Part shown: piece after piece, positions 18,842 to 49,913 of the stretch
Numbering within the stretch: the first letter of the stretch is position 1
Layout of the letters: every line of letters begins with the position of its first letter
DNA from: Variovorax sp. CAN15
Lineage (GTDB): Bacteria; Pseudomonadota; Gammaproteobacteria; Burkholderiales; Burkholderiaceae_C
Length of the DNA stretch: 64,000 nt
Reading direction: 5' to 3'
Assembly (NCBI RefSeq): GCF_030462475.1
Contig: NZ_JASMRZ010000009.1
Location: forward strand, 67,546 to 131,545
The notes under the pieces: model-generated
The model's input: the letters and a program-made list of their open reading frames with translations, nothing else
What the model was told of the DNA's origin: nothing
Database searches by the model: none
Made by a program: the position numbers and the translations under genes

Positions 18842-21589
<2,748 letters not shown>

Positions 21590-31570: not shown

Positions 31571-31614
31571 GGCGCACGGGGAAGACGACGCGGCCGGTTC
31601 TTCTCTTGTGGCCT

Positions 31615-35379: not shown

Positions 35380-35389
35380 GGCATTTGCT

Positions 35390-35503
35390 CCCTCTCCCGC
35401 CTGCGGGAGAGGGTTGGGGCGAGGGCCGGCAGCGACGGTTGGAGCTGTGCTCTTGCGAAGGCCGATGCCCTCACCCTGGCCCTCTCCCGCGAGCGGGAGA
35501 GGG
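35390..35503. repeat. Pair of REP-like palindromes between nicA-like and nicB-like genes
   Basis: Two 24-base palindromes at 35390-35413 and 35480-35503, each CCCTCTCCCGC-nn-GCGGGAGAGGG, bracket about 66 bases. They fill the gap between the two dehydrogenase subunit genes and resemble REP-type elements common in proteobacteria. Confidence 0.85.
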
Positions 35504-35518
35504 GACAAGACCAGCGGC

Positions 35519-36019
35519 TCATGGGTTCGGCTCCTCGCGCATGCGCACCGCCGCGCGCTGCACCGCGTCGAGGATCTCGATGTGCGTGCCGCAGCGGCAC
35601 AGGTTGCCCGACAGCTCGCTGCGGATGCGCGCCTCGCTGGCTTGCGGGTCGCGCGCGAGCAGCGCGGCGGCCTGCATCACCATGCCGTTGAGGCAGTAGC
35701 CGCACTGCGCAGCCTGCGCTTCCTCGAATGCGGCCTGCACCGGGTGCCACTCGCCGCGCGAGCCCAGCCCTTCGAGCGTGGTGATGGCGCGCCCCGCCAC
35801 GCCGTGCGCGGGAATCACGCACGAGCGCGCGGCCACGCCGTCGACGTGCACGGTGCATGCGCCGCACTGCCCCAGCCCGCAGCCGTACTTGGGGCCGTTC
35901 AGCCCCAGGTCGTTGCGCAGCAGGTGCAGCAACGTCGCCTCGCGCGGCACGCCTGCTATCGATTGCGCCCGGCCGTTGACCAGCAGGCGCAGCGGCTCAG
36001 CGCCGCAGCTGGCCGTCAC
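35519..36019 (-). CDS. 2Fe-2S subunit of molybdenum dehydrogenase (NicA-like)
   Basis: 166 residues. The plant-type 2Fe-2S cluster motif is C-G-L-G-Q-C-G-A-C near residue 47-55, with a fourth Cys (SCVIP) downstream. The second cluster uses QCGYCLNGM and LCRCGTH. This is the small-subunit pattern of the xanthine oxidase family. It begins at GTG 36019, overlapping the end of the upstream binding-protein gene by 23 bases. No signal peptide is visible, although its NicB partner carries haem c and a membrane anchor. It would pass electrons from the molybdenum site to the haems. Confidence 0.88.
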   Translation of the reverse strand: MTASCGAEPLRLLVNGRAQSIAGVPREATLLHLLRNDLGLNGPKYGCGLGQCGACTVHVDGVAARSCVIPAHGVAGRAITTLEGLGSRGEWHPVQAAFEEAQAAQCGYCLNGMVMQAAALLARDPQASEARIRSELSGNLCRCGTHIEILDAVQRAAVRMREEPNP

Positions 36020-37157
36020 GGGTGTACATCTCCAGATCGACGAAGGTCGAGCCGTTGTGGTTCTTCGCGCTGTACTCGATGGGGAAGTCGCCGAAACGCG
36101 TGCTGCCGATGCTCTCCAGCCCGGCGATGAAGCCGTCGCGCGTGAGCGTCTTGCCCGCGCGGCGCAGGCCCTCGACCATCACGCGCGCGACGATGTAGCC
36201 CTCCAGCGCGGTGTAGCTGTCGATCTTCTCGCCGAACTCGGCGCGGTCGCGCTGGTAGTCGGCCACGATGGGCACGCGCAGCGCCTGCGGCGGCGGCACG
36301 ATGCTGGCCGTGACCAGTCCCGCGAGCTTGCCTTCGAGCCGCTTGGCGGACCCTGCCGCGTCGGTGATGCCGACGGAGAGCGTGTACAGCGGCGCGCCCA
36401 CGGCGTTCGCGCGGTAGTCGCGCATGAACACTTCCACCATGCGCCCGGCCATGATCATCACGACCGCGCCCGGCTTCGCGTCGGCCAGGCCGGTGGCGAC
36501 CTGCTTCGCGTCCTCGGCCGCGATGGCCAGCGGGAAGGTCTTGAGCACCTTCACCTTGTAGTCGGCGGCGAGCTCCTCGCAGGTGGCGAGGTTCGATTTG
36601 CCGAAGGCGCTGTCCTGGTAGACCACCGCGATCGACTGGATGCCGATGGTCGAGAGGTGGCTGATGATCTTGCGCAGCTCCAGGTCGTAGCCCGCGCGCA
36701 CGTGGAACAGGTAGCGGTTGACCTTGGTGCGGAACGAGGTGGTGCCCACCAGCGGCGCGAACATCGGCACGCCGGCTTTTTCCGCGAGCGGCATCGCCGC
36801 CGCGAGGTTGCCGGTGGCCACGTAGCCGGTGAGCGCGAAGACCTTGTCTTCATCGATCAGCCTGGCGGTGTTGACGGCCGTCTTCGCGGGATCGTAGGCA
36901 TCGTCGTAGGTGACCAGCTCGATCTTGCGGCCATTCACGCCGCCCGACTTGTTGACCCGGTCGAAGTAGAGCTTGATGCCCGCGCGGTAGTCGATGCCGA
37001 AGTCCTTGGCCGGTCCGCTGAACACGGCCGACTGGCCAATGCGGATGATGGTGTCGGTCACACCGTTGTCCGCGCGCGCCGTGCGCAGCAGGCCGGGGCC
37101 GAGTGCAAGGGCAGCGGCGCTCGCCACCATGGCACGCCTTGAGATCGAGGGCTTCAT
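35997..37157 (-). CDS. Periplasmic substrate-binding protein, Leu/Ile/Val type (second of cluster)
   Basis: 386 residues. A twin-arginine-like leader (SRRAMVASAAALALGPGLLRTARA) precedes a type I periplasmic-binding fold: IRIGQSAVFSGPAKDFGIDYRAGIKLYFDRVNKSGGVNGRKIEL, then FALTGYVATGN. It lies between the nicotinamidase-like gene and nicA, inside the operon with the Liv-type importer. The ligand is unknown; nicotinamide, nicotinate or a related pyridine is an inference from context. Confidence 0.88.
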   Translation of the reverse strand: MKPSISRRAMVASAAALALGPGLLRTARADNGVTDTIIRIGQSAVFSGPAKDFGIDYRAGIKLYFDRVNKSGGVNGRKIELVTYDDAYDPAKTAVNTARLIDEDKVFALTGYVATGNLAAAMPLAEKAGVPMFAPLVGTTSFRTKVNRYLFHVRAGYDLELRKIISHLSTIGIQSIAVVYQDSAFGKSNLATCEELAADYKVKVLKTFPLAIAAEDAKQVATGLADAKPGAVVMIMAGRMVEVFMRDYRANAVGAPLYTLSVGITDAAGSAKRLEGKLAGLVTASIVPPPQALRVPIVADYQRDRAEFGEKIDSYTALEGYIVARVMVEGLRRAGKTLTRDGFIAGLESIGSTRFGDFPIEYSAKNHNGSTFVDLEMYTRDGQLRR

Positions 37158-37210
37158 GCGTCGTGGGTTCCGTATTCTTGTTGCTCTTTCCGACTTGCGC
37201 GGATGCGCGC

Positions 37211-37936
37211 TCAGGCGGTCTGGATGTCCGCCGACTGGATGCGCTTGACGCCTTTGGCCGTCATCTGCTTCCAGGCCGCGGCCAGCGAGCCGTTGAGGTC
37301 GATGCCGCGCGTGGCATCTTCGATCACGTAGGCCTCGAAGCCGGCCTTGCGCGCATCCATGGCGGTCCACGCCACGCAGAAGTCGGTGGCAAGGCCGGTG
37401 ACGAACACGGTCTTGATGCCGCGCGCCTTCAGGTAGCCGGCGAGGCCCGTGGCCGTCTTGTGGTCGGCTTCCTCGAAGGCCGAGTAGCTGTCCATGTCCT
37501 TGTGGAAGCCCTTGCGGATGATGAGCTGCGCGGTGGGCACCTTCAGCTCCTTGCCGAGCGCCGCGTCGTCGGTGCCCTGCACGCAGTGGTCGGGCCACAG
37601 CACCTGCGTGCCGTAGCTGAGCTTGGTGGTCTCGAAGGGCTTCTTGCCGCTGTAGGTGCTGGCGAACGATGCATGGCCCGCCGTGTGCCAGTCCTGCGTG
37701 ACGACGATGTTCTGGAACGCGGGAGCCAGCGCGTTGATGACCGGAATGACTTCGTTGCCGCCCTTCACCGCCAGCGTGCCGCCGTCGAGAAAGCAGTTCT
37801 GCACGTCGACCACGATCAGCGCGGCCCTGTCGCCGGGCTTGATCTTGCCCGCCGCGAAGGCGTTGAAACCGACACTGCCGAGGCCGCCGGCCAGCCCGAG
37901 GGCTGCGGCGGATTTCACGAGGGTTCTGCGATGCAT
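37211..37936 (-). CDS. Nicotinamidase (PncA-like) with export leader
   Basis: 241 residues. The mature part (from about residue 31) is an isochorismatase-fold amidase. The catalytic Asp is in IVVDVQNCF (44), the catalytic Lys is in IIRKGFHKD, and the nucleophile Cys is in VTGLATDFCVAWTA. Metal ligands lie in VVTQDWHTAGHASFAS, and the PncA hallmark WPDHCVQGT is present. It converts nicotinamide to nicotinate. The leader MHRRTLVKSAAALGLAGGLG followed by AFAAG looks Tat-like, unlike cytosolic PncA. I chose the ATG at 37936 because the upstream extension encodes no sensible sequence. Confidence 0.9.
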   Translation of the reverse strand: MHRRTLVKSAAALGLAGGLGSVGFNAFAAGKIKPGDRAALIVVDVQNCFLDGGTLAVKGGNEVIPVINALAPAFQNIVVTQDWHTAGHASFASTYSGKKPFETTKLSYGTQVLWPDHCVQGTDDAALGKELKVPTAQLIIRKGFHKDMDSYSAFEEADHKTATGLAGYLKARGIKTVFVTGLATDFCVAWTAMDARKAGFEAYVIEDATRGIDLNGSLAAAWKQMTAKGVKRIQSADIQTA

Positions 37937-37964
37937 GGCGTGGACTCCAGGGGTTGAAGAAAAA

Positions 37965-38699
37965 TCAGACGCTGAGGTAAGCGCGGCGCACTTCGTCGTT
38001 GGCCGCAAGCTCGGCCATCGTGGCGTGATAGCGGATCTGCCCCTTCTCGAGCACATAGGCGCGGTCGGACACCAGCTCGGCGAAATGCATGTTCTGCTCC
38101 GACAGCAGGATGCTCACGCCCTGCGCCTTGAGCTCCAGGATCATGTTGGCCATCTGCTCGACGATCACCGGCGCCACGCCTTCGGAAGGCTCGTCGAGCA
38201 GCACGAGATAGGGGTTGCCCATCAGCGTGCGCGCCACGGTCAGCATCTGCTGCTCGCCGCCGCTCATGCGCCCGCCCGGGCGATTGGGCATCTCGCCGAG
38301 ATTGGGGAACAGCTTGAACAGGCGCTCGGGCGTCCACAGCGGCGCGTCGGTGCCGTCGGCCCAGCGGCGCGCTGCCTGCTTGCCGACTTCGAGGTTCTCC
38401 ATCACCGTGAGGTCGGTGAACACGCGCCTGTCTTCGGGCACGAAGCCCAGGCCCAGGCGCGCCGCGTGATGCGGCTCGCTCTTGGAGATGTCGTGGCCCA
38501 GGAAGCGCACCGCGCCGCGGCGCTTGGCGAGCATGCCGATCAGCGCCTTCAGCGTGGTCGACTTGCCCGCGCCGTTGCGGCCCATGAGCGCGACCACTTC
38601 GCCGCGACGCACGTCGAGGTCGACGTCATAAAGAATCTGCGCGGCGCCGTACCAGGCGCACAGGGCCTTGGCCTGCAGCAGGGGTTCCCGGGTGCTCAT
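37965..38699 (-). CDS. livF: Branched-chain-type ABC transporter ATP-binding protein LivF
   Basis: 244 residues. Walker A GRNGAGKST, signature LSGGE-type MSGGEQQML and Walker B YLVLLDEPSEG are all present, with the LivF-type ending (AELAANDEVRRAYLSV). It overlaps livG by 4 bases. It is one of two ATPases energising the importer of this cluster. Ligand assignment to pyridines is from context only. Confidence 0.93.
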   Translation of the reverse strand: MSTREPLLQAKALCAWYGAAQILYDVDLDVRRGEVVALMGRNGAGKSTTLKALIGMLAKRRGAVRFLGHDISKSEPHHAARLGLGFVPEDRRVFTDLTVMENLEVGKQAARRWADGTDAPLWTPERLFKLFPNLGEMPNRPGGRMSGGEQQMLTVARTLMGNPYLVLLDEPSEGVAPVIVEQMANMILELKAQGVSILLSEQNMHFAELVSDRAYVLEKGQIRYHATMAELAANDEVRRAYLSV

Positions 38700-39484
38700 G
38701 CGGCTTCTCCAACGGCTGCTGCCTTCTTCTCGAATGTCTTGCCCGTGCCGAAGTACACCTCCTGCACCTTGGGATGGTCGCGGATCTCCAGCGGCTTGCC
38801 CTGCGCGATGAGCCGGCCGCGCGCCAGCACGATCATGCGGTCGGCATATGCGAACACCACGTCCATGCTGTGCTCGGTGAACAGCACGGCCATGCCGCGC
38901 TGGATGACGAGGTCCTTGGTCAGCGCCATGAGCGAGTTGCGCTCCTTGGGCGCCATGCCGGCGGTGGGCTCGTCCATCAGCAGCAGCTTGGGCGAGTTGG
39001 CCATCGCGATGGCGAGCTCGACGCGCTTCACGTCGCCGTAGGCCAGCACGCTGCAGGGCCGGTCGGCCTGCGACTTCATGCCGACCTGGTCGAGCAGCGC
39101 CAGCGCTTCCTCCCGCTTGTGGTCGGCGGCGCGGCGCCAGGTGGAAAAGAGCTTGCGGTCGTGCGACAGCAGCGCCATCTGCACGTTCTCGACCACGGTG
39201 AGCGAGGCGAAGGTCTCGGCGATCTGGAAGGTGCGGCCCACGCCCATGCGCCAGATCTCGCGCGGCTTGCGGCCCACGAGTTCCTGGCCGTCGAGTGTGA
39301 TGGAGCCCTGGTCGGCCTTCAGCTGGCCGTTGACCATGTTGAAGGTGGTGGACTTGCCGGCGCCGTTGGGTCCGATGAGCGCGAGCAGCTCGCCGGGCGG
39401 CAGCTCGAAGCTGATGCCGTCCACCGCCTTCACGCCGCCGAAGGACTTGCCGAGGTTCTCGACCTTGAGGAGCGTCGTGCTCAT
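38696..39484 (-). CDS. livG: Branched-chain-type ABC transporter ATP-binding protein LivG
   Basis: 262 residues from ATG at 39484, which overlaps the fused permease stop by 4 bases. Walker A GPNGAGKST and Walker B LLLMDEPTAGM are seen. The usual LSGGQ signature is degenerate here (SVLAYGDVKRVELAIAMA), as is common in LivG proteins with L-x-Y-G-x-x-R. C-terminal Ala/Lys-rich tail. Confidence 0.93.
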   Translation of the reverse strand: MSTTLLKVENLGKSFGGVKAVDGISFELPPGELLALIGPNGAGKSTTFNMVNGQLKADQGSITLDGQELVGRKPREIWRMGVGRTFQIAETFASLTVVENVQMALLSHDRKLFSTWRRAADHKREEALALLDQVGMKSQADRPCSVLAYGDVKRVELAIAMANSPKLLLMDEPTAGMAPKERNSLMALTKDLVIQRGMAVLFTEHSMDVVFAYADRMIVLARGRLIAQGKPLEIRDHPKVQEVYFGTGKTFEKKAAAVGEAA

Positions 39485-41421
39485 GCCTTCACCTCCTCGA
39501 GCTTGGCCTTGGCTTCGGCCTTTGCCTCGTCTTCGGCCCTGGGCCCTCGCCAGCGATCGGCAAGCTGCTTGATCGAGCCCGCGATGCCCTGCGGGAACAG
39601 CAGCACCAGGATCAGGATGATGGCGCCGAGCATCGCGCGCCAGTAGTCGGTGTTGCGCGCCACGGTGTCGTGCAGCCAGGTGAAGGTGACGGCGCCGACC
39701 ACCGGGCCCGCGAGCGTCTGGATGCCGCCGAGCAGCACCATCACGAGGCCGTCGACCGACTTGCCGACCGATAGCGTCTCCGGCGAGATGCTGCCCTTCG
39801 AGAATGCGAAGAGCGCACCCGCCAGGCCCGCTACGGTGCCGGCGATGATGAACGCCACCCACTGCATGCGCTTGACGTCGATGCCGATGGCGTCGGCGCG
39901 CAGCACCGAGTCACGGCCCGCGCGCATCGCGTAGCCGAAGGGCGAGAACAGCACGCGCCGCAGCCACCACACGCCCGCGCCCACCAGCACCAGCGTGAGC
40001 CAGTAGTAGGCCTGCTTGTCGGAAAGCCACTCGGAGGGCCAAACGCCCGTCAGGCCGTTGCTGCCGCCGGTGAAGCTGTCCCACTGGTAAGTGATGGCCC
40101 AGGTGATCTGCGCGAAGGCCAGCGTGAGCATGGCAAGGTACACGCCCGACAGCCGCACCGCGAACCAGCCGTAGACGAAGGCGCCGAGCGCGGCCACCAG
40201 CGGCGCGACGATCAGCGCAAGCTCCATCGGCAGGTGCAGCGCACGCACCAGCAGCGCGGCGCCGTAGGCGCCGAGTCCGAAGTAGGCGGCATGGCCGAAG
40301 GAGTGCATGCCGGCCGGGCCCATGATGAAGTGCAGGCTGGCGGCGAACAGGGCCGCGATCATCAGGTCGATCATCAGCACCGTGGTGTAGGGCGAGTTCA
40401 CCGTCAGGAACGGCAGCACCGCCAGCACCAGCGCGAACACGGCGGCGGCCACCACATAGGCCTTGCCCGGGCGGCGCAGCGGCTCTTCCTGCATGCCCAC
40501 GTAGCGGCTGGGCGCCTGCGGCCGGCCGAACAGGCCCCACGGGCGCCACACCAGCACGATGGCCATCACGAGGAAGTCGACCATCAGCGTGAGCTTGGAG
40601 AACGACACGTCGATGCCGAAGATCTGCACCACGCCGAGCCAGATGCACACGGCCTTGATCTCGGCGATGAGCAGCGCGGCCATGTAGGCACCAGGCAGCG
40701 AGCCCATGCCGCCCACCACCACGACCACGAAAGCGGCGCCGATGGTGTTCAGGTCCATCTCGAGCGTGGCGGGTTCGCGTGGCAGCTGCAGCGCGCCGCC
40801 GAGGCCCGCGAGCAGCGCACCCAGCGCGAACACGGCCGTGAAGAGCCAGGCCTGGTTGACGCCCAGCGCGCTGACCATCTCGCGGTCCTGGGTGGCGGCG
40901 CGCACCAGGGTGCCGAAGCGCGTGCGGGTGAGCAGCAGCCACACGAGGCCGAGCACCACCGGGCCGACGACGATCAGGAACAGGTCATAGGAAGGAAACT
41001 GCCGCCCGAGGATTTCGACCGAGCCCCTGAGGCCTGGCGCGCGCGGTCCGAGCAGTTCGTCGGGGCCCCAAAGCCACAGCACCGCGTCCTTGATGACGAG
41101 CACCAGCGCGAAGGTGGCCAGCAGCTGGAACAGCTCTGGCGCCTTGTAGATGCGGCGCAGCAGCACCACCTCGATGATGGCGCCGAGCACGCCCACCGCC
41201 AGCGCGGCGATCAGCAGCGCGGGCCAGAAGCCCAGGCTCGAGCCCAGCTTGTCGACGAGCGTGTACGCGAGATAGATGCCCACCATGAAGAACGAACCAT
41301 GGGCGAAGTTGACGATGCGCGTCACGCCGAAGATCAACGAGAGCCCGGCCGCCACGAAGAAGAGCGAGGACGCGCCGGCCAACCCGTTGAGCAACTGAAC
41401 AACAAAACCTGAAAAACTCAT
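39481..41421 (-). CDS. Fused LivH-LivM ABC transporter permease
   Basis: 646 residues, about the sum of LivH (~290) and LivM (~330). The first half is LivH (AAGLSLIFGVTRIVNFAHGSFFMVG; GGMGSLPGAYMAALLIAE). The second half is LivM (GPAGMHSFGHAAYFGLGAYGAALL; GTVAGLAGALFAFSKGSISPETL) and ends in a charged KAEAKAKLEE tail. The two halves are joined by a short cytoplasmic linker (FGRPQAPSRYVGMQEEPLRRPGK). ATG at 41421 follows AAGGATC. Both half-channels are thus made in a fixed 1:1 ratio. Confidence 0.94.
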   Translation of the reverse strand: MSFSGFVVQLLNGLAGASSLFFVAAGLSLIFGVTRIVNFAHGSFFMVGIYLAYTLVDKLGSSLGFWPALLIAALAVGVLGAIIEVVLLRRIYKAPELFQLLATFALVLVIKDAVLWLWGPDELLGPRAPGLRGSVEILGRQFPSYDLFLIVVGPVVLGLVWLLLTRTRFGTLVRAATQDREMVSALGVNQAWLFTAVFALGALLAGLGGALQLPREPATLEMDLNTIGAAFVVVVVGGMGSLPGAYMAALLIAEIKAVCIWLGVVQIFGIDVSFSKLTLMVDFLVMAIVLVWRPWGLFGRPQAPSRYVGMQEEPLRRPGKAYVVAAAVFALVLAVLPFLTVNSPYTTVLMIDLMIAALFAASLHFIMGPAGMHSFGHAAYFGLGAYGAALLVRALHLPMELALIVAPLVAALGAFVYGWFAVRLSGVYLAMLTLAFAQITWAITYQWDSFTGGSNGLTGVWPSEWLSDKQAYYWLTLVLVGAGVWWLRRVLFSPFGYAMRAGRDSVLRADAIGIDVKRMQWVAFIIAGTVAGLAGALFAFSKGSISPETLSVGKSVDGLVMVLLGGIQTLAGPVVGAVTFTWLHDTVARNTDYWRAMLGAIILILVLLFPQGIAGSIKQLADRWRGPRAEDEAKAEAKAKLEEVKA

Positions 41422-41438
41422 CAAAGATCCTTTGCTCG

Positions 41439-41528
41439 CCCCCAGGCTTGCCCACTTCGTGTGGCCGCCCACCCCCTACCGGGGGCAATACCTGCGGCCC
41501 GGCAAAGCCGGTTCCGCGGTATTCCTGG
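41439..41528 (-). repeat. Dispersed structured repeat, copy C
   Basis: Reverse orientation relative to copy A. The outer stem reads AATACC/GGTATT where the other copies have AACACC/GGTGTT, so both sides changed together. It lies between the substrate-binding protein gene and the fused permease gene. Confidence 0.9.
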
Positions 41529-41569
41529 AATGGTCCGCTTTGGTATAGGTGTCAGGGGTTGGCTTGCGC

Positions 41570-42775
41570 TCAGTCTGCTGGGCGCATCTTTTTCACTTCG
41601 TCGTCGGACGGCTGGAACTTCGCGCCGTCGAGGTAGACGTAGTCGACCATCACACCCTTGCCGCCGTCGTTCTTGGTCTTGCCGACGTAGGCGCCCATGG
41701 TGGACTGGTTGTCCTGCGCGCGGTAGCTGATCTTGCCGAAGGGCGTGTCGACCTGCAGGCCCTTGAAGGCGGCCACGAGTTTTTCGGTGTCTGTGCTGCC
41801 GGCCTTCTTGATGCCGGCCGCTATCGAGTGGATGGCGCTGTAGCCGACCACCGAGCCCAGGCGCGGATAGTCCTTGAACTTGGCCTGGTAGGCATCGAGG
41901 AAGGCCTTGTGCTCGGGCGTCTTCACCCCATACCACGGGTAGCCGGTGACGACCCAGCCGTTGGGCGCCTCGTCCTTCAGCGGGTCGAGGTACTCGGGCT
42001 CGCCTGTCAGCACGCTCACCACCTCGCGGTCCTTGAAGAGGCCACGCGTGTTGCCTTCGCGCACGAACTTGGAGAGGTCGGCGCCGAAGAGCACGTTGAA
42101 GATGGCGTCGGGCTTGGCGTCGGCCAGGGCCTGCACCACGCTGCCCGAATCGACCTTGCCCAGCGGCGGAGCCTGCTCGGCGACGAACTCCACGTCGGGC
42201 TGCGCGGCCTTCAGCAGCGTCTTGAAGGTAGCGACCGACGACTGGCCGTATTCGTAGTTGGGGTACACGAGCGCCCAGCGCTTCTTCTTGAGCTTGGCGG
42301 CCTCGGGCACCAGCATCGCGACCTGCATGTAGGTCGAGGGACGCAGGCGGTAGGTGTACTTGTTGCCGTTGCTCCAGACGATCTTGTCGGTGAGCGGCTC
42401 GGCGGCGAGATAGAAGAACTTCTTCTGCTTGGCGAAGTCGGTCAGCGCCAGGCCCGTGTTCGACAGGAAGGCACCGGCCAGCACGTCGACCTTTTCGCGC
42501 GAGATGAGTTCTTCGGCCACGCGCACCGCGTCGCCGGGGTTGGCGTTGTCGTCGCGGCTGATGAGCTCGATCTTCTTTCCGTTGATACCGCCCTTGGCGT
42601 TGATCTCGTCGACCGCGAGCTCCATGCCCTTCTTGTAGGGCTCGAGGAAGGCGGGCTGCGCCTTGTAGCTGTTGATTTCGCCGATCTTGATCACGCCCTG
42701 CGCATGCGCGGGAACAAGGGCGGTGGCCAGCGTGACGACGGAAGCGGCGCAGAAAACATGGCGCAATGGATTCAT
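41570..42775 (-). CDS. Periplasmic substrate-binding protein, Leu/Ile/Val type (first of cluster)
   Basis: 401 residues with a Sec signal peptide (cleavage near AHAQG, residues 22-26). The fold is the type I binding protein: VIKIGEINSYKAQPAFLEPYKKGMELAVDEINAKGGINGKKIEL, then DVLAGAFLSNTGLAL. It is immediately upstream of the fused permease, so it is the main candidate binding protein of this importer. It is clearly different from the second binding protein at 35997. Confidence 0.92.
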   Translation of the reverse strand: MNPLRHVFCAASVVTLATALVPAHAQGVIKIGEINSYKAQPAFLEPYKKGMELAVDEINAKGGINGKKIELISRDDNANPGDAVRVAEELISREKVDVLAGAFLSNTGLALTDFAKQKKFFYLAAEPLTDKIVWSNGNKYTYRLRPSTYMQVAMLVPEAAKLKKKRWALVYPNYEYGQSSVATFKTLLKAAQPDVEFVAEQAPPLGKVDSGSVVQALADAKPDAIFNVLFGADLSKFVREGNTRGLFKDREVVSVLTGEPEYLDPLKDEAPNGWVVTGYPWYGVKTPEHKAFLDAYQAKFKDYPRLGSVVGYSAIHSIAAGIKKAGSTDTEKLVAAFKGLQVDTPFGKISYRAQDNQSTMGAYVGKTKNDGGKGVMVDYVYLDGAKFQPSDDEVKKMRPAD

Positions 42776-42854
42776 CGAGAAGCTCCTAGGGGTTAAGGCA
42801 GAAAGAATTCGAGTTGTATGGGCGCGAGGCTCTGGCTGGACGATGCGGCGCTAC

Positions 42855-43442
42855 TCAGCGCAGTCCATCTTCGCCCTTGATCTCGGAGACCTGCAGGCCA
42901 CCGATGCGCGGCAGCGGACGGCCGCTGTCGGTGACGGCCACCGCCACGACGATCTCGTTGGCGCGCGGCGCGTCGCTCACGCGGGCTTCCACCGCGTCGA
43001 AATGGCTGCGCACGAAGGCGGCGTCCTTGTGGCCCAGCGGCACGTCGATGGCGGTGCCCAATGTGCCCTGCTTCTTGGCCGAGGGCACGAGCGCCGCGCC
43101 CTTCTCGACCGCCACGCGCAACGGTGCGCCCAGCTTGGGATGCAGGATGGCGGCGGCATGTTCGAGCTCGCCGCGCTCGCCCACGATGGCGGCCTTGCCG
43201 TAGCTCTGCGCCTGGCCGGGCTCGATGCCCAGCGCCTTCACGGCCTTCTGGCCCAGCAGCGCGCCGAGTTCCTCGCCGATGGCGATGAGCTCGTCGAGGT
43301 TCTCGCTGTAGCGGCCGGCATAGGGGTTCTCGATGACGGCGATGGCGACGGCGCGGCGCGTGGGCGGCGTGATGTCCTGGCCCATTTCCTTGCGGGTTTC
43401 ATCGACCTGAATGACGAGCTTGCGGATGTTGGCGGTAGTCAT
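42855..43442 (-). CDS. DUF1185 'amino acid synthesis' family protein, paralogue 1
   Basis: 195 residues from ATG at 43442. The family core is present: RRAVAIAVIENPYAGRY, then YGKAAIVGERGELEHAAAILHP and TAIDVPLGHKDAAFVRSHFDAVEARV, ending GEDGLR. The domain (PF06684) has no established reaction. It shares NP(Y/F)AGRY, YGK(A/G)AIVG, GELEH, DVPL and the DGLR end with the neighbour at 43600. Its place between a 6-hydroxynicotinate reductase operon head and the importer suggests a step or accessory function in nicotinate breakdown (inference). Confidence 0.88.
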   Translation of the reverse strand: MTTANIRKLVIQVDETRKEMGQDITPPTRRAVAIAVIENPYAGRYSENLDELIAIGEELGALLGQKAVKALGIEPGQAQSYGKAAIVGERGELEHAAAILHPKLGAPLRVAVEKGAALVPSAKKQGTLGTAIDVPLGHKDAAFVRSHFDAVEARVSDAPRANEIVVAVAVTDSGRPLPRIGGLQVSEIKGEDGLR

Positions 43443-43449
43443 TGGCACA

Positions 43450-43541
43450 CCCCCAGGCTGCGCGCACTGCGTGTCGCTACGCCAACCCCCTTGCAGGGGG
43501 CAACACCTGCGGCCCGGTAAAGCCGGTTCCGCGGTGTTCTT
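43450..43541 (-). repeat. Dispersed structured repeat, copy D
   Basis: Reverse orientation relative to copy A. It separates the two DUF1185 genes and ends seven bases before the start codon of paralogue 1, so its terminal GGGGG could lie in the ribosome-binding region. Confidence 0.9.
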
Positions 43542-43599
43542 GAATCGATGAGGCCCAGGTTGGTTTGCGAGGAGTTGGTCATGGTCATAGTCCTTTTTT

Positions 43600-44241
43600 T
43601 CAGCGCAGGCCGTCCCACTTGCTGATGTCTTTCGCGAGCAGGCCGCCCACGCGGGCATGGATGCGATAGCCCGTGCTCATCGCGAGGATGAAGACGATCT
43701 CGTCGGCCGCCGGCGCGCCGGGTACGCGCACCTCGATGGCATCGAACTGGCCGCGCACGTAGCTGGCGTTGATGTTGGTCAGCGGCACGTCGAGCGCGGC
43801 GCCGGGCGGGCCGACCTTCTTGGTCGAGGGCACGATCGACAGCGCGTTGCCGGGCTGGCCGGTTTTCTCTTCAGCCTTGCCAGCGGTGTACGCGGCACGG
43901 CTGCCTTTCCAGCCGAGCAGTTCGCGCATCGCGTAGCCGCCGGGCACGTGCCACAGCGCGCCATGCTCCAGCTCGCCGTCGGCGCCGACGATGGCGCCCT
44001 TGCCGTAGGTAGCGATCTGCTCCAGCGGCACGTCCATGGCGGCGTGCAGCCGGTGCGCCATGTCGACGCCCACAGGGTCGAGCAGCGCCATCATCGGCAG
44101 GATGTCGGGCTCGTAGCGGCCGGCGAACGGATTGGTCAGCACCGCGCCGATGGCACCACGCACCAGCGGGGTGTCGGCGCGCGGTCCGAACTCGTGGTGG
44201 ATGTGCTCGACCTGGGTGAAGACGCGGCGGATTTCGATCAT
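43600..44241 (-). CDS. DUF1185 'amino acid synthesis' family protein, paralogue 2
   Basis: 213 residues: MIEIRRVFTQVEHIHHEFGPRADTPLVRGAIGAVLTNPFAGRYEPD, then YGKGAIVGADGELEHGALWHVPGGYAMRELLG and AALDVPLTNINASYVRGQFDAIEVRV, ending KWDGLR. It is longer in the middle than paralogue 1. The two probably form a heteromer or carry out related steps (inference). It lies 21 bases downstream of the UPF0280 gene in the same operon. Confidence 0.88.
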   Translation of the reverse strand: MIEIRRVFTQVEHIHHEFGPRADTPLVRGAIGAVLTNPFAGRYEPDILPMMALLDPVGVDMAHRLHAAMDVPLEQIATYGKGAIVGADGELEHGALWHVPGGYAMRELLGWKGSRAAYTAGKAEEKTGQPGNALSIVPSTKKVGPPGAALDVPLTNINASYVRGQFDAIEVRVPGAPAADEIVFILAMSTGYRIHARVGGLLAKDISKWDGLR

Positions 44242-44262
44242 GAAAAAGAACCTTGCTTTTCG

Positions 44263-45180
44263 TTAAGCAAATACTGAACCAACGGATTTCGGCGACTCTG
44301 CATCGAGCGCCTTCGAGCATAAGGGCTCGACAAGTCTCCACTGCCCCTGGCAAACGAGTAGAGCGGCCCACACGAGCCCTCCTTTTTGCAGGACCTTGGC
44401 GCATATCGCGCCCGTATCGAGTGCGCTGCGCACCTGCGCGGGGGCCAGCGTGGGCACGTCGACGGTGACGAGGGTGTCGCCCAGGTCGCTGTCGTCCTTG
44501 CACTCGTTCGCGGGGCGGCGCGCGATGGCCTCGTCGTCCACGTCGACGGCGTTGGCGATCACTGTCGCGGCGGCATCGGCCTGCGCTGCGGTGGCGGCCA
44601 GCACCGTCACGCTGTCGGCGATACCCAGCGAGAAACTGCGCCCGCGCCAGCCGCTGGTGGCGACGCCGCGCACGGGCTGGTCTGCGCGCAGCTCGAACTG
44701 GCCGTCGGTGGTGAGGATGCCGCCCTCGCCGGCCAGATGGCTGCGCAGGTCGAAGCGCGCGATGTCGGCGAACACACCCACGCGCGCGGACTGGCCGGGC
44801 GCGAGATGCAGCGCGATGTCGCCGCCATTGTTGATCCACGCACGCTCGATGCCGGGGCGTTCGTAGAACGCGATCAGCTCCTGCGCGACCGAGCCGGCCA
44901 CCGCCGCCATCGGCGTGATGAAGGTCGGCGAGAACGCCGCGCATGCGTCCCACATGCGGCGCGCCACCACGTTGCGCGGGCGCATCCTGTCGGTGACGGG
45001 CAGGCGCAGCAACGGCAGCTCGCGCACCAGTTCATCGAGCACGTGGACGAAGCGCGCCCATGCCGCGTCGTGCGCCGCACCCACGGCATACGGATCGCCG
45101 TGCGCCTCGGCCACGATGTCGATCGGGCCGTGGCTGAAGTGCCAGCGGCTCTTGTCGAGCGCACTGCGTTGGGCGGACAT
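44263..45180 (-). CDS. UPF0280 protein, ApbE superfamily
   Basis: 305 residues. ApbE-like features are visible: a nucleotide-binding WINNGGDIALHLAPG, a VATSGWRGRSFSLG segment, and DSVTVLAATAAQADAAATVIANAV, which corresponds to the ADALAT-type helix of ApbE flavin transferases. ApbE enzymes bind FAD and can attach FMN covalently to partner proteins. It begins 2 bases after the 6-hydroxynicotinate reductase stop, so the two are almost certainly co-translated. A role in assembling or supplying flavin to that reductase is an inference. Confidence 0.85.
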   Translation of the reverse strand: MSAQRSALDKSRWHFSHGPIDIVAEAHGDPYAVGAAHDAAWARFVHVLDELVRELPLLRLPVTDRMRPRNVVARRMWDACAAFSPTFITPMAAVAGSVAQELIAFYERPGIERAWINNGGDIALHLAPGQSARVGVFADIARFDLRSHLAGEGGILTTDGQFELRADQPVRGVATSGWRGRSFSLGIADSVTVLAATAAQADAAATVIANAVDVDDEAIARRPANECKDDSDLGDTLVTVDVPTLAPAQVRSALDTGAICAKVLQKGGLVWAALLVCQGQWRLVEPLCSKALDAESPKSVGSVFA

Positions 45181-45182
45181 GA

Positions 45183-46796
45183 TCAGCCCAGCATCGGGGC
45201 GTGGCCCAGGGGCCACGGGTTGGAGTCGTCCACCGCGAGCCATTGGCGCGCGAGCGGCGCGCCGTCTTCCTGCCATGCACCGCGCGCGAGCGCCTGCTCG
45301 AGCGGGAAGATGTGTTCCATGTGGCCACCGAGCGCCTCGTAGTCGTCGCGCCGCATGCTGAACTCGATGGGCGCGACGATGGCCGGCGTGGGCACGGTGC
45401 CGAAGCTGTTGTCGGGCATGCGCATGACGTCGGCCATCACGGTGATGCCGCCGCCGGGCCACACATAGGCCGGCGCGCCGCCGCAGGTGACATTGACCAG
45501 CGCGCGCTTGATGGCGCGCGTGAGCAGCACCGGGTTCTCGGTGACGCCCGCGCGCAGGCTGCCGCCCGCACCACCGAGGAACAGCACGGTGCACAGCGAC
45601 GGTTCGCAGTTCTCGCCGATGCGGTCGACGATGCGTTTCACTTCCGGCGGCATGGGCTGTTCGACGGGCTTCAGTGCATCGTCGAGCACGTACCACTGCG
45701 CGTGCTCGCCGGTGGTCGACGTCATGAGCAGGCGCAGGCCGGGGCGGGCGACGCCCTCTTCCCAGCCTTCGATGATCGCGAGCGGATCGGCGATGTCGGT
45801 GCCGCCCCAGCCGTTGCCCGGATTCGCCACCTGGAAGTAGCGCCCCGGCGTGGACTTGCGGCCCAGCATCTGGATGCCCGAAGGCGCCATGTCGAGGCAG
45901 CGGCCGGCCTGGTGCTCGGTGAGCACGCCGGTGATGTGGTCGTCGACCACCACCACTTCGTCGGCCACGCCGGCGAACTGGCGCGCGAAGATGCCGACCG
46001 CGGCCGAGCCGCAGCCCACGCGCATGCGCTGCTCTTCCACGCCGTTGACGATGGGCGCCCTGCCAGCCTGGATGACGAGGGTGGAGCCACCGTCGATGGT
46101 GCACTCCACCGCCTTCTTGTTGCCCAGCAGCTGCATCAGCTCGGCCGTCATGCGGCCTTCCTTCTTGCTGCCGCCGGTGAGGTGGTGCACGCCGCCGAGC
46201 GAGAGCATCTGCGAGCCGTATTCGGCCGTGGTCACATGGCCCACGACCTCGCCGCGGTAGCGCACGTTCGCCTGCTCGGGGCCGAGAAAGCGGTCGGTAT
46301 CGATCTTCACCTTGAAGCTGCAGTAGCTGAAGATGCCTTCGGTGACGACGGTGACCATGTCGACGCCCTGGGCCTTGGAAGCCACGATGAAGGGCGCGGG
46401 CTTGTAGTCGGGATAGGTGGTGGAAGAGCCCACGCCGGTGACGAAGACTTCGTCGGCGTGCAGCAGGTCGCCGTTCCAGTCGGGGCTGGCGGGGGCTTCC
46501 TCGGCGCCGGGGCGGTTGAAGGGAACCAGCGCGGGCTTCTCGCTTTCGACCGTACGGCGCAGCAGCACGACGGGATCGACGCGCACCAGCACGCCTTCCT
46601 TGTTGGCATAGCGGTCGCAGGCGCCGGTGCGGCCGTCGGAGATCTGGCACAGCACCGGGCAGGCGTTGCACTCGACCTTCGCCGTGCTCATGCGCTCGTT
46701 GCGCAGCGGCGCCTTGCCGAAGGCACTGCTGCCGGCTTCGGCCACCACGGGCATGTCCATGCCGGGGAGGCCATCTGTCTTGGTGTGTTCTGTCAT
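45183..46796 (-). CDS. 6-hydroxynicotinate reductase homologue
   Basis: About 537 residues. A Cys cluster VECNACPVLC...GACDRY places Cys at 43, 46, 50 and 60 (C-x2-C-x3-C-x9-C), likely an Fe-S site. Gly-rich stretches follow (GVGSSTTYPDYKPAPFIV, GNGWGGTDIADPLAIIEGW, LFLGGAGGSLRAGV, GGAPAYVWPGGGITVMADV). I recognise the family annotated as 6-hydroxynicotinate reductase after the Eubacterium barkeri enzyme, which uses ferredoxin to form 6-oxo-1,4,5,6-tetrahydronicotinate. ATG at 46796 is the likely start. The frame extends 38 codons further, but that part overlaps the operator region. An enamidase gene 2 kb away supports the call. Confidence 0.83.
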   Translation of the reverse strand: MTEHTKTDGLPGMDMPVVAEAGSSAFGKAPLRNERMSTAKVECNACPVLCQISDGRTGACDRYANKEGVLVRVDPVVLLRRTVESEKPALVPFNRPGAEEAPASPDWNGDLLHADEVFVTGVGSSTTYPDYKPAPFIVASKAQGVDMVTVVTEGIFSYCSFKVKIDTDRFLGPEQANVRYRGEVVGHVTTAEYGSQMLSLGGVHHLTGGSKKEGRMTAELMQLLGNKKAVECTIDGGSTLVIQAGRAPIVNGVEEQRMRVGCGSAAVGIFARQFAGVADEVVVVDDHITGVLTEHQAGRCLDMAPSGIQMLGRKSTPGRYFQVANPGNGWGGTDIADPLAIIEGWEEGVARPGLRLLMTSTTGEHAQWYVLDDALKPVEQPMPPEVKRIVDRIGENCEPSLCTVLFLGGAGGSLRAGVTENPVLLTRAIKRALVNVTCGGAPAYVWPGGGITVMADVMRMPDNSFGTVPTPAIVAPIEFSMRRDDYEALGGHMEHIFPLEQALARGAWQEDGAPLARQWLAVDDSNPWPLGHAPMLG

Positions 46797-47120
46797 CGGG
46801 GCGATCTCGTGGGCGTTCGGTGGTGTGCAAGGGGGCAGATCCAGGCTGCCGGGGTTTGCAACAAACGTGCCGCCCGCCTGCTTGTGCATCGACTGCCGTT
46901 TGTGTAGCATTCCCTACACTTTCATGTTGCATTCACTACATCAAAGGTCAATGTAGCAAACGGGCCCGATGCTTGCAATGGTGTTTTCTCGCGGTGTGCA
47001 TCGGGGTTTCTCCGACCAACGACAATGGAGGGTTCGGAGCCGGCCGGCGGCTTGCGCCCCAAAGGCGTGCACCCAGGCTCAGCCAACCTCCCCTGTTACC
47101 AACCAACTCTTGAGTTCCGT
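46797..47120. promoter_or_regulatory. 324-base divergent regulatory gap with tandem TGTAG palindromes
   Basis: Gap between the divergent 6-hydroxynicotinate reductase operon and fpr. Two 16-base near-palindromes occur: TGTAGCATTCCCTACA at 46903-46918 and TGTTGCATTCACTACA at 46925-46940. They start 22 bases apart, about two helical turns. A further half-site ATGTAG at 46951-46956 forms CTACAT-9-ATGTAG with the second site. The remaining gap (46960-47120) shows nothing I can name. The binding protein is unknown; the TetR gene at 48013 is the nearest candidate. Confidence 0.65.
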
Positions 47121-47894
47121 ATGAGTGCATTCAGCGAAGAACGCGTCCTGAGCGTCCACCACTGGACCGATCGCCTGTTCACCTTCACCACCACGCGCGA
47201 CCCGGCGCTGCGCTTCTCGAACGGTCATTTCACGATGATCGGCCTGAAGGTCAACAACAAGCCGCTGCTGCGCGCCTACAGCATCGTCAGCCCGAACTAC
47301 GAGGAGCATCTCGAGTTCCTGAGCATCAAGGTGGAAGACGGCCCGCTGACCTCGAAGCTGCAGCACATCCAGGTGGGCGACACCATCATCGTGGGCCGCA
47401 AGCCCACCGGCACGCTGCTGATCGACTACACGCTTCCGGGCAAGCGCCTGTACCTGTTCGGCACGGGCACCGGCCTCGCACCGTTCATGAGCATCATCCG
47501 CGACCCGGACACCTACGAGAAGTTCGAGCAGGTCATCCTGGTGCACGGCGTGCGCCAGGTCGACGAGCTGGCCTATCACGACCTCGTGACCGACCACCTG
47601 CCCAAGCACGAGTTCCTGGGCGAGATGATCGCCAAGCAGCTGCTGTACTACCCCACGGTCACGCGCGAGGAGTTCCGCAACCAGGGCCGCATCACCGACC
47701 TGATCGAGAGCAACAAGCTCACCGACGACCTCGGCCTGCCGCCGCTGAATGTCGAGGAAGACCGCGTCATGCTGTGCGGCAGCCCGGGCCTGCTGGTGGA
47801 CCTGAAGCACATTCTCGAGAAGCGCGGCTTCAAGGAAGGCAACACAAGCACGCCGGGCGACTTCGTCGTCGAGCGCGCCTTCGCCGAAAAGTAA
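47121..47894 (+). CDS. fpr: Ferredoxin/flavodoxin-NADP reductase
   Basis: 257 residues. The FAD motif RAYSIVSP is at 51-58, NADP-binding LFGTGTGLAPFMSIIRD near 116-132, and the C-terminal end FVVERAFAEK is typical of bacterial FPR subclass enzymes. It shuttles electrons between NADPH and ferredoxin or flavodoxin. Divergent placement from a ferredoxin-dependent reductase suggests it could feed that enzyme, but fpr is also a housekeeping gene in this group. ATG at 47121 begins the FPR core; the longer frame upstream is not conserved-looking. Confidence 0.93.
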   Translation: MSAFSEERVLSVHHWTDRLFTFTTTRDPALRFSNGHFTMIGLKVNNKPLLRAYSIVSPNYEEHLEFLSIKVEDGPLTSKLQHIQVGDTIIVGRKPTGTLLIDYTLPGKRLYLFGTGTGLAPFMSIIRDPDTYEKFEQVILVHGVRQVDELAYHDLVTDHLPKHEFLGEMIAKQLLYYPTVTREEFRNQGRITDLIESNKLTDDLGLPPLNVEEDRVMLCGSPGLLVDLKHILEKRGFKEGNTSTPGDFVVERAFAEK

Positions 47895-48012
47895 TGAAGG
47901 CCCCCCGGCTTTTCACTCGCTGTGCTCGTGTAACTCCACCCCCCGTGGGTGAGGCGCGGTCCGCCTTGGGGCGGCCCGGCGGCGACCGCCCCCCTCTTCG
48001 TCCCGCCCTCCG

Positions 48013-48759
48013 ATGGAACGCAAGGTAGTCACCAAGCCGCAGCGCCGCATGGGCGTGCGCGAGGCAGCTGCCCAGGCCACGCGCGACAGCATCCTGAAGG
48101 CGGCGACCAAGGTGTTCGCCAAGTACGGCTACGACGGCGGCAGCGTGGAGAAGATCTCCAAGGCCGCGAAGTCGTACGACCGGATGATCTACTACTACTT
48201 CGGCAGCAAGGAAGGACTCTTCATTGCCGTGCTCGAAGGCATCTACCAGCGCATGGACGACGCCGAGGCCGCCATTGCCCTCGACGCCTCGCGGCCGGTG
48301 GAGGCGCTCACCGAAGTCATCCGCTTCGTGCTGGGCTACTACCGCAAGAACCCCGAGTTCGTCACGCTGCTGAACACCGAGAACCTGCACAAGGGCCGGC
48401 ACATCTCGAAGTCGCTGCGCGCGCGCGAGTACTCGTCGCGCGCGGTGGCCATCATCGCGGAAATCCTGGCCAGCGGCGCCGCGCAAGGCCTGTTCCGCAA
48501 GGACCTTGTGGCGCGCGACATCTACCTGCTGATCGCGTCCACCGGCTATTTCTACACCTCCAACAGGCACACGCTCACCGCCTTCCTCGGCGAGCCGCTG
48601 GAGTCGCCGGAGGCGATCACGCACTGGGAAGACTTCGTGATCGAGACCGTGCTGCGCACCGTGCGCGCGGACGACGTACAAGACAACACCCCACCCCACG
48701 AGGAAAACACGAAATGGCAGAAATCGCAGCCGGCGGCAAGTCGGGCAAGGTCGTCATAA
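48013..48759 (+). CDS. TetR-family regulator next to enamidase gene
   Basis: Up to 248 residues. The helix-turn-helix region runs TRDSILKAATKVFAKYGYDGGSVEKISKAAKSYDRMIYYYFGSKEGLF (about 23-70), followed by a TetR C-terminal ligand domain. The start is uncertain: ATG 48013 has no clear ribosome site and ATG 48049 is possible. The 3' end overlaps the enamidase gene by 46 bases. Position suggests control of the nicotinate genes, probably with the pathway substrate or intermediate as ligand (inference). Confidence 0.88.
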   Translation: MERKVVTKPQRRMGVREAAAQATRDSILKAATKVFAKYGYDGGSVEKISKAAKSYDRMIYYYFGSKEGLFIAVLEGIYQRMDDAEAAIALDASRPVEALTEVIRFVLGYYRKNPEFVTLLNTENLHKGRHISKSLRAREYSSRAVAIIAEILASGAAQGLFRKDLVARDIYLLIASTGYFYTSNRHTLTAFLGEPLESPEAITHWEDFVIETVLRTVRADDVQDNTPPHEENTKWQKSQPAASRARSS

Positions 48760-49913
48760 AGAACATCGGGCTGCTGCTCTCGGGCGACATCGACAAGCCC
48801 ATCCTCGACGCCGACACCATCGTGGTGAACGACGGCCTGATCGTCGCGGTCGGCAAGGAAAAGGACTGCGACCTCGAAGGCGCGGTCACCGTCATCGACG
48901 CGAAGAAGACCTGCGTGGCACCCGGCCTGATTGACAGCCACGTGCACCCGGTGTTCGGCGACTGGACGCCGCGCCAGGGCCAGCTCGGCTGGATCGACTC
49001 GACCATGCACGGCGGCGTGACGACCATGATTTCCGCCGGCGAGGTGCACCTGCCCGGCCGCCCCAAGGACATCGTGGGCCTGAAGGCACTGGCCATCACG
49101 GCGCAGCGCGCGTTCGACAACTTCCGCCCCGGCGGCGTGAAGGTGCTGGCGGGCGCGCCCGTCATCGAGAAGGGCATGGTCGAGAGCGACTTCAAGGAAC
49201 TCGCCGAGGCCGGCGTGGGCCTGCTCGGCGAGGTGGGCCTGGGCTCGGTGAAGGCAGGCTACGAGGCCAAGGAGATGGTGGCCTGGGCGCGCAAGTACGG
49301 CATCCAGAGCACGATCCACACCGGCGGCCCGTCGATCCCCGGCTCGGGCCTGATCGACAAGGACGTGGTGCTCGAGGCCGACGCCGACGTCATCGGCCAC
49401 ATCAACGGCGGCCACACCTCGCTGCCCGAGGCGCATGTGTGCGAACTGTGCGAGAAGAGCTCGCGAGCCATCGAGATCGTGCACAACGGCAACGAGAAGG
49501 TCGCCATCGCCGCCGCGAAGGCCGCGCTGGAGCTCAAGTGCCCGCACCGCGTGATCCTCGGCACCGACGGCCCCGCGGGCTCGGGTGTGCAACCGCTGGG
49601 CATCCTGCGCATGGTGGCAATGCTGTCGTCCATCGCGAACATCCCGGCCGAGCTGGTGTTCTGCTTCGCGACCGGCAACACCGCGAAGATCCGCAAGCTC
49701 AACTGCGGCCTGGTCGAGGTGGGCCGCGCCGCCGACTTCGTCTTCATGGACCGCGCTCAGCATTCGCCCGCGCCGGGGCTGCTCGAGAGCGTTCAGCTCG
49801 GCGACATCCCGGGCGTGGGCATGGTGATGATCGACGGCATCGTGCGCTGCGGCCGCAGCCGCAACACGCCTCCGGCGACGGAGATTCCGGTCGTCGTCTC
49901 GGGCGCGCACTGA
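48714..49913 (+). CDS. Enamidase (6-oxo-1,4,5,6-tetrahydronicotinate amidohydrolase) homologue
   Basis: 399 residues, amidohydrolase superfamily. Metal-site motifs in order: HVHP at 76-79, GEVGLGS, TIHTGG, GHINGG and GTDGPAGSG. These and the flanks (VIKNIGLLLSGDIDKPIL, STMHGGVTTMISAGEVHLPGRPKD, DIPGVGMVMIDG, SRNTPP) closely follow the E. barkeri enamidase as I recall it. That enzyme opens the reduced pyridine ring to 2-formylglutarate plus ammonia. GAGGAAA lies seven bases before ATG 48714, inside the end of the tetR gene. Confidence 0.88.
   Translation: MAEIAAGGKSGKVVIKNIGLLLSGDIDKPILDADTIVVNDGLIVAVGKEKDCDLEGAVTVIDAKKTCVAPGLIDSHVHPVFGDWTPRQGQLGWIDSTMHGGVTTMISAGEVHLPGRPKDIVGLKALAITAQRAFDNFRPGGVKVLAGAPVIEKGMVESDFKELAEAGVGLLGEVGLGSVKAGYEAKEMVAWARKYGIQSTIHTGGPSIPGSGLIDKDVVLEADADVIGHINGGHTSLPEAHVCELCEKSSRAIEIVHNGNEKVAIAAAKAALELKCPHRVILGTDGPAGSGVQPLGILRMVAMLSSIANIPAELVFCFATGNTAKIRKLNCGLVEVGRAADFVFMDRAQHSPAPGLLESVQLGDIPGVGMVMIDGIVRCGRSRNTPPATEIPVVVSGAH

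Follow-up and report, generated by a model that had tools for sequence, protein, structure and literature searches.

A predicted reductive nicotinate degradation locus in Variovorax sp. CAN15 and the pairing of UPF0280 with its 6-hydroxynicotinate reductase homologue

Introduction

The first three genes of reductive nicotinate degradation were reportedly noted in several Proteobacteria as early as 2006, in the work of Alhapel. Reduction of 6-hydroxynicotinate was discovered in Eubacterium barkeri and was then reported, in 1989, in the aerobe Azorhizobium caulinodans, and a cluster in which the first three genes are joined by a putative importer and two proteins without known function is conserved in proteobacteria, according to the available parts of one study (PMC3511419). 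The same excerpts describe Bradyrhizobiaceae strain SG-6C, which grows on nicotinate with transient 6-hydroxynicotinate, carries a cluster of the same kind with a reductase 42% identical to the E. barkeri enzyme, and also channels 6-chloronicotinate into the route (PMC3511419). Portions of a second article place the reductive route in both E. barkeri and Azorhizobium (PMC9304392). Here, a 64,000-nucleotide stretch of the 6.9-Mb genome of Variovorax sp. CAN15 (assembly GCF_030462475.1, contig NZ_JASMRZ010000009.1, positions 67,546 to 131,545; referred to as the window) was analyzed. One locus in it, judging from its genes, very probably serves the uptake and breakdown of nicotinamide or nicotinate by this route.

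For the most part, the cluster itself is not new; it adds Variovorax and its relatives to the bacteria in which this vitamin B3 route is known. The new part is the near one-to-one pairing of UPF0280 with a reductase whose model matched no solved fold found here. UPF0280 and PF06684, families without an assigned reaction, gain a concrete metabolic setting, and the acquisition of flavin by the reductase becomes directly testable. An earlier note on this DNA, made from the letters alone, had set a reductive, anaerobe-type route against a probable aerobic host; novelty in this is not supported by the Azorhizobium report and the conservation of the cluster in proteobacteria (PMC3511419, in the parts available).

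Results and Discussion

Gene content and conservation of the locus

Reading frames in the locus were those of an open reading frame listing, with start codons set by sequence; positions are those of the window. The 6-hydroxynicotinate reductase homologue (Hnr; 537 amino acids) is encoded at 45183 to 46796 on the minus strand and was assigned from its identity to annotated reductases. Relatives in 26 plasmid records were 58 to 87% identical to it, and 17 of the 26 were annotated as 6-hydroxynicotinate reductase. Seven cysteines were invariant across 40 Hnr sequences. Hnr had no match in Pfam, NCBIfam, or the Protein Data Bank (PDB); a profile search of the PDB gave a single match (E = 0.39), which was taken as chance, and a fold search with the predicted structure (pLDDT 78.1, pTM 0.75) gave nothing at E ≤ 0.001.

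The enamidase homologue (EnaA; 399 amino acids; 48714 to 49913, plus strand; Pfam Amidohydro_1) aligned over residues 11 to 390 with the E. barkeri enamidase (PDB entry 2vun; 368.6 bits, E = 4.4e-109), the comparison that the earlier note had proposed as a check. Residues H76 and H78 (the H-x-H pair), E173, H202, H229, and D285, which we take to be metal-site positions, aligned with the same residues in 2vun and were kept in at least 95% of 22 alignment rows, the window copy included.

A NicA-like 2Fe-2S subunit (35519 to 36019, minus strand; Pfam Fer2 and Fer2_2) and a NicB-like nicotinate dehydrogenase large subunit (31615 to 35379, minus strand, ATG at 35379; Pfam MoCoBD_1, MoCoBD_2, and cytochrome c) were found at the far end of the gene run. 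NicB contained molybdopterin domains, one hydrophobic membrane segment, and three CxxCH (haem c) motifs. In three plasmid records (from Pseudomonas, Pantoea, and Azospirillum; three examined of 940 matching), genes 55 to 59% identical to it adjoin genes for 2,5-dihydroxypyridine dioxygenase. These relatives in nic-type plasmid clusters fit a predicted function as nicotinate dehydrogenase, and their position beside the dioxygenase genes suggests a hydroxylase common to both nicotinate routes. Directly after NicB, a fumarylacetoacetate hydrolase-like gene was observed at 30343 to 31524 (PF01557, 24.6 bits against a cut-off of 23.9). Very long plus-strand frames antisense to NicB (31606 to 35691 and others) are expected of GC-rich coding DNA and were not counted as genes.

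The nicotinamidase gene (37211 to 37936, minus strand) scored above the curated cut-off of NF008623 (PncA; 182.8 versus 174 bits), and its product has a twin-arginine-type leader. A loose pattern of RR plus a hydrophobic stretch was present in 69 of 78 nicotinamidase relatives; the nicotinamidases of three genomes outside the class (G607, G464, and G487) had no export leader. The importer genes, also on the minus strand, occupy 35997 to 37157 and 37965 to 42775. They comprise a substrate-binding protein (SBP1; 41570 to 42775), a fused LivH-LivM permease (39481 to 41421), a LivG-type ATPase (38696 to 39484), and a LivF-type ATPase (37965 to 38699), all named from their reading frames or from the annotation of the aligned record CP099606.1 (“ABC transporter permease” for the fusion and ABC transporter ATP-binding protein for LivF). 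A second, branched-chain-type substrate-binding protein (SBP2; 35997 to 37157) was assigned from its sequence and its place beside the Liv genes.

From 46796 downward, the minus strand thus carries Hnr, UPF0280, two PF06684 proteins (AAS1 and AAS2), SBP1, the permease, the two ATPases, nicotinamidase, SBP2, NicA, and NicB, and from 47121 the plus strand carries a ferredoxin-NADP reductase (FNR), a TetR-family regulator, and EnaA. Several adjacent genes overlap or nearly touch, an arrangement as in an operon: the UPF0280 gene starts at 45180, two bases past the hnr stop codon, and the 3' end of the SBP2 gene overlaps the nicA start. The dehydrogenase, the nicotinamidase with export leader, the importer, the reductase, and the enamidase named in the earlier note were all recovered, the last two as open frames at precisely the positions it gave and NicB just beyond the interval it covered (35519 to 49913). 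UPF0280, the two PF06684 genes, FNR, and the TetR gene were absent from its list.

With Hnr as the query, 80 related loci were fetched, several of which end at contig ends. UPF0280, AAS1, and FNR were each present in all 80, followed by the TetR regulator (79), EnaA (78), the LivF-type ATPase (73), NicA (71), and nicotinamidase (68); 13 genes of the set occurred together in 67. The set recurred in loci of Variovorax, Xenophilus, Pseudacidovorax, and Acidovorax, and this recurrence argues that the grouping is not due to chance. The window Hnr was up to 98% identical to Hnr of named Variovorax genomes, in line with a Variovorax host. More widely, Hnr was present in 24 of the 300 order genomes sampled and in 32 of the 398 sampled from the phylum. 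Three genomes were common to both samples and were counted once, giving 53 Hnr-positive genomes. Neighboring genes were read in 47 Hnr-carrying genomes or plasmids, namely, 21 of the 24 order genomes (leaving out the window's own genome, G126, and G271), 21 of the 29 further phylum genomes, and 5 of the 26 plasmid records.

The proposed pathway

The reductive reading is well supported by the presence of dehydrogenase, reductase, and enamidase homologues alongside nicotinamidase and importer genes. In the proposed scheme, the exported nicotinamidase would produce nicotinate outside the cytoplasm, and the Liv-type importer would bring it in. NicAB would convert nicotinate to 6-hydroxynicotinate, with electrons passing to its haem c domains and then to respiration. 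Hnr would reduce 6-hydroxynicotinate to 1,4,5,6-tetrahydro-6-oxonicotinate with electrons from NADPH delivered via the FNR gene product, and EnaA would open the lactam, with release of ammonia, to give 2-formylglutarate, which in aerobes would go on to glutarate. UPF0280 would equip Hnr with its flavin, and AAS2, perhaps with AAS1, would work alongside the ring opener or at the step directly following it.

The E. barkeri fermentation cluster reportedly includes a reductase and an enamidase; the locus has a putative homologue of the first and a homologue of the second (aligned through 2vun). The locus differs in that its dehydrogenase is of the NicAB-cytochrome type, and no enzyme of the later fermentation steps was among the genes named in the run, for which genes at about 30 to 50 kb of the window were compared with profile libraries. 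The clusters of SG-6C and A. caulinodans hold the same kinds of genes as the window, and with the growth of SG-6C on nicotinate they favor the earlier note's interpretation; the window run differs in having an exported-type nicotinamidase, two PF06684 genes, and a TetR gene, which may also occur there (PMC3511419, as far as the excerpts go).

The earlier note had contrasted this route with the one through 2,5-dihydroxypyridine, a contrast that calls for a qualification. A search of the genome for NicC gave four matches, none in the locus and the best at 38%, but a NicX homologue (50% identical) was found at 20198 to 21226 of contig C156. It lies in a different cluster (L183, G000:C156:11000-30900), next to Amidohydro_2 (decarboxylase-type), Rieske oxygenase, ferredoxin reductase, isochorismatase-type, and molybdopterin genes. 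This cluster resembles a picolinate-type cluster. The homologue was considered as proof of an oxidative nicotinate route and rejected, its neighbors pointing elsewhere. Degradation of nicotinate through 2,5-dihydroxypyridine in this genome, with Hnr and EnaA serving something else, would give the NicX homologue a place, yet it appears highly improbable given the weak NicC match, the separate setting of NicX, and the fact that NicAB adjoins Hnr and EnaA. The nic cluster of plasmid pBYT5-1, with its 2,5-dihydroxypyridine dioxygenase, has the NicA/NicB hydroxylase in common with the locus; that cluster oxidizes the ring, whereas here the ring would be reduced and hydrolyzed, and NicC, NicX, and NicD were not among the named genes of the run.

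Some points count against the reductive reading and the roles assigned within it. Gene content, conservation, the homology of EnaA, the predicted fold of UPF0280, and co-occurrence were observed; the reactions assigned to this organism, the path of the electrons, and the functions of UPF0280 and the AAS proteins are putative. The identity of Hnr is taken from annotated plasmid records, at one remove from the E. barkeri enzyme. Genes acting after 2-formylglutarate were sought only among the window genes at about 30 to 50 kb. FNR was near Hnr in only 13 of the 47 loci read. PF06684 was found in 38 of the 300 order genomes, including 20 of the 24 Hnr-positive ones, and also occurs without Hnr.

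UPF0280 and its proposed role in the maturation of Hnr

The flavin of Hnr is reportedly covalent, a finding ascribed to Alhapel in 2006. The UPF0280 gene (44263 to 45180, minus strand), whose product has an ApbE-like predicted fold, was detected in 52 of the 53 Hnr-positive genomes and in 1 of 327 Hnr-negative genomes tested, the latter being genomes without a match among the few candidates scored per genome. In the order sample, 24 genomes had Hnr, 24 had UPF0280, and 23 had both (Fisher test, 3.7e-32, kinship not corrected). In a second set, drawn from the phylum, UPF0280 was present in 29 of 29 Hnr-positive genomes and in none of 51 extra Hnr-negative ones, which were phylum-sample genomes not listed as Hnr positive in the phylum search. 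The two exceptions were G126, which is 78% complete and has Hnr at the end of a contig and no UPF0280, and G084, with UPF0280, AAS2, and an 83% identical enamidase, in which no Hnr was found. In four genomes of one genus (G029, G118, G157, and G284), UPF0280 was present away from Hnr.

The UPF0280 model (pLDDT 91) gave 18 Foldseek matches at E ≤ 0.001, two of them chains of 2o34, its own solved relative, and the other 16 chains of ApbE, Ftp, or FmnB. All matches ranked 3 to 41, after 2o34, were flavin transferases of these three kinds. The sequences N-x-G-G-D and T-S-G, which presumably correspond to ApbE motifs, were invariant in the UPF0280 alignment, and 23 of 32 members matched the ApbE profile PF02424 at E ≤ 1 (best, 1.2e-5). 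Near-exclusive co-occurrence with Hnr and the ApbE-like fold together suggest a dedicated factor for maturation of the Hnr flavin, a role that we propose with moderate confidence. Covalent attachment of flavin to Hnr by UPF0280 is proposed as a bolder form of this role. No paper on UPF0280 was found in the literature searched.

In ApbE, the catalytic histidine is His257 of the Vibrio protein and the target motif is D-x-x-[ST]-G-A-[ST], according to the parts of a review available (PMC12052999). Cytosolic ApbEs are mentioned there as well, which makes a cytosolic target possible for UPF0280 (PMC12052999). UPF0280 resembles the ApbE transferases in predicted fold and differs from them in that no signal peptide was seen at its start. 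Several further observations speak against a transferase role: no histidine was invariant in 32 UPF0280 sequences (the best kept were H4 in 27, H7 in 26, and H115 in 25), the target motif occurred in none of 40 Hnr sequences even with S permitted for G, the window protein scored 18 bits with PF02424 (cut-off 25.6), and TM-scores to the 16 transferase chains were modest (0.33 to 0.48). A DGRTGAC stretch of Hnr was considered as an ApbE site and rejected; 13 of 40 sequences have a loose form of the motif, and in the window the stretch ends in an invariant cysteine. A classical ApbE reaction between UPF0280 and Hnr is not supported by these sequences, and since both the histidine and the motif are missing, any flavin attachment would be noncanonical. 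The same observations favor a flavin carrier, an assembly chaperone for Hnr, or a handler of some other nucleotide in place of a transferase. We regard this as a serious alternative, somewhat short of even, against which stand the unbroken series of flavin transferases in the fold search and the two invariant motifs.

Modularity of Hnr clusters

A 45-row tree of Hnr, which combined the window with 44 of the 47 genomes or plasmids read (G315, split in two frames, G418, and G487 were left out), required at least four changes of ring opener and at least five changes of hydroxylase type. An enamidase (at least 60% identity) was found in 18 of the 47. Among the 29 enamidase-negative ones, HyuA or HyuB was nearby in 16, and neither was over the threshold in the stretches read in 13; enamidase and HyuA or HyuB occurred together in none of the 47. 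In G075, one of the genomes with no ring opener over the threshold, HyuA was matched more weakly where the stretch read ends, and in G052 a distant enamidase relative was located on a different contig. HyuA and HyuB stood in the place of enamidase in Hnr clusters L133, L135, L136, L163, and L175. Relatives of HyuA and HyuB include ATP-using 5-oxoprolinases, and by analogy an ATP-driven opening of the lactam is plausible in these clusters. No paper that combined the term 6-hydroxynicotin- with hydantoinase was found in the literature searched.

Given such exchange of modules, substrates may differ among Hnr clusters, and the main substrate of the window cluster could be another, related pyridine carboxylate or lactam, such as a nicotinate bearing chlorine or some other substituent; nicotinate itself would then be a side substrate only. 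The entry of 6-chloronicotinate into the route in SG-6C is consistent with this (PMC3511419, excerpts), as is the detection of a nicotinamidase match in only 11 of the 47 in the stretches read. In the window, however, the gene run itself includes the nicotinamidase, as it does in 68 of the 80 close relatives, and NicAB belongs to the type found in nic clusters; nicotinamide and nicotinate are indicated by both observations, and a different main substrate is improbable.

PF06684 proteins

AAS1 (43600 to 44241, minus strand; 212 bits with PF06684; solved relatives 3byq and 2qtp) and AAS2 (42855 to 43442, minus strand; 237.5 bits) represent two types that were told apart by motif, and AAS2 is the one that tracked enamidase. 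All 19 of the enamidase-positive genomes or plasmids read had the AAS2 type, with AAS1 as well in 12 of them, and among the 29 enamidase-negative ones it was found by motif in 1 and by best match in another (Neorhizobium). In G418 and G487, a block of AAS1, AAS2, and enamidase lay on a contig other than that of Hnr. In seven order-sample genomes with a distant enamidase relative (41 to 43%; L204, L205, L206, L207, L208, L211, and L212), a PF06684 match lay within 140 bases in every case; six of the seven had no Hnr, and these pairs possibly belong to another lactam or enamide pathway.

A strict tie between PF06684 and enamidase is at odds with the order sample, in which PF06684 was the commoner (38 versus 17 of 300). 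A test of AAS2 against enamidase on independent tree pairs was not significant, with only three pairs, of which an average of 2.3 were in the expected direction and none against. The idea that all Hnr routes depend on AAS proteins was rejected, since G010, G103, G126 (78% complete), and G271 have Hnr and no PF06684 match. A fuller proposal would make UPF0280 a dedicated cytosolic Hnr flavin transferase that lacks the ApbE histidine and acts at a site without the ApbE motif, which would amount to protein flavinylation of a second type. It would also make AAS2-type PF06684 proteins partners of enamidase-type ring openers, handling either the formyl-acid product or the complex that opens the ring. 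This proposal is offered tentatively and is, as a whole, rather doubtful.

Elsewhere, the PF06684 protein HcdD has been tied to coumarin breakdown, although its effect could not be shown, and TgnF, another member, is cited as stimulating succinate semialdehyde oxidation (PMC7913881, in the parts available). The family has also been linked to amino acid metabolism, partly from nearby branched-chain-type transporter genes (PMC2954203, in part). In Hnr clusters, branched-chain-type transporters beside PF06684 accompany nicotinate genes. The CAN15 genome has a third PF06684 gene (L184:8984-9583, G000:C106), near two aldehyde dehydrogenase-like frames (assigned by eye), a flavin adenine dinucleotide (FAD) monooxygenase, and a NIPSNAP-domain gene.

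Candidate electron supply and regulation

The genome has a single strong copy of FNR (47121 to 47894, plus strand; Pfam FAD_binding_6 and NAD_binding_1). Since it is also beside Hnr in only 13 of the 47 loci read, it may be a general enzyme or one that works for Hnr and for general metabolism alike. The product of the TetR gene (48013 to 48759, plus strand) matched 18 NCBIfam TetR-type families, all below the cut-off. Two copies of TGTWG-N6-CWACA (46903 to 46940, starting at 46903 and 46925) lie in the gap between the divergent hnr and fnr genes and are a candidate operator of this regulator. They were the only matches to the pattern in the window, and at least one match was present somewhere in 71 of the 80 related loci.

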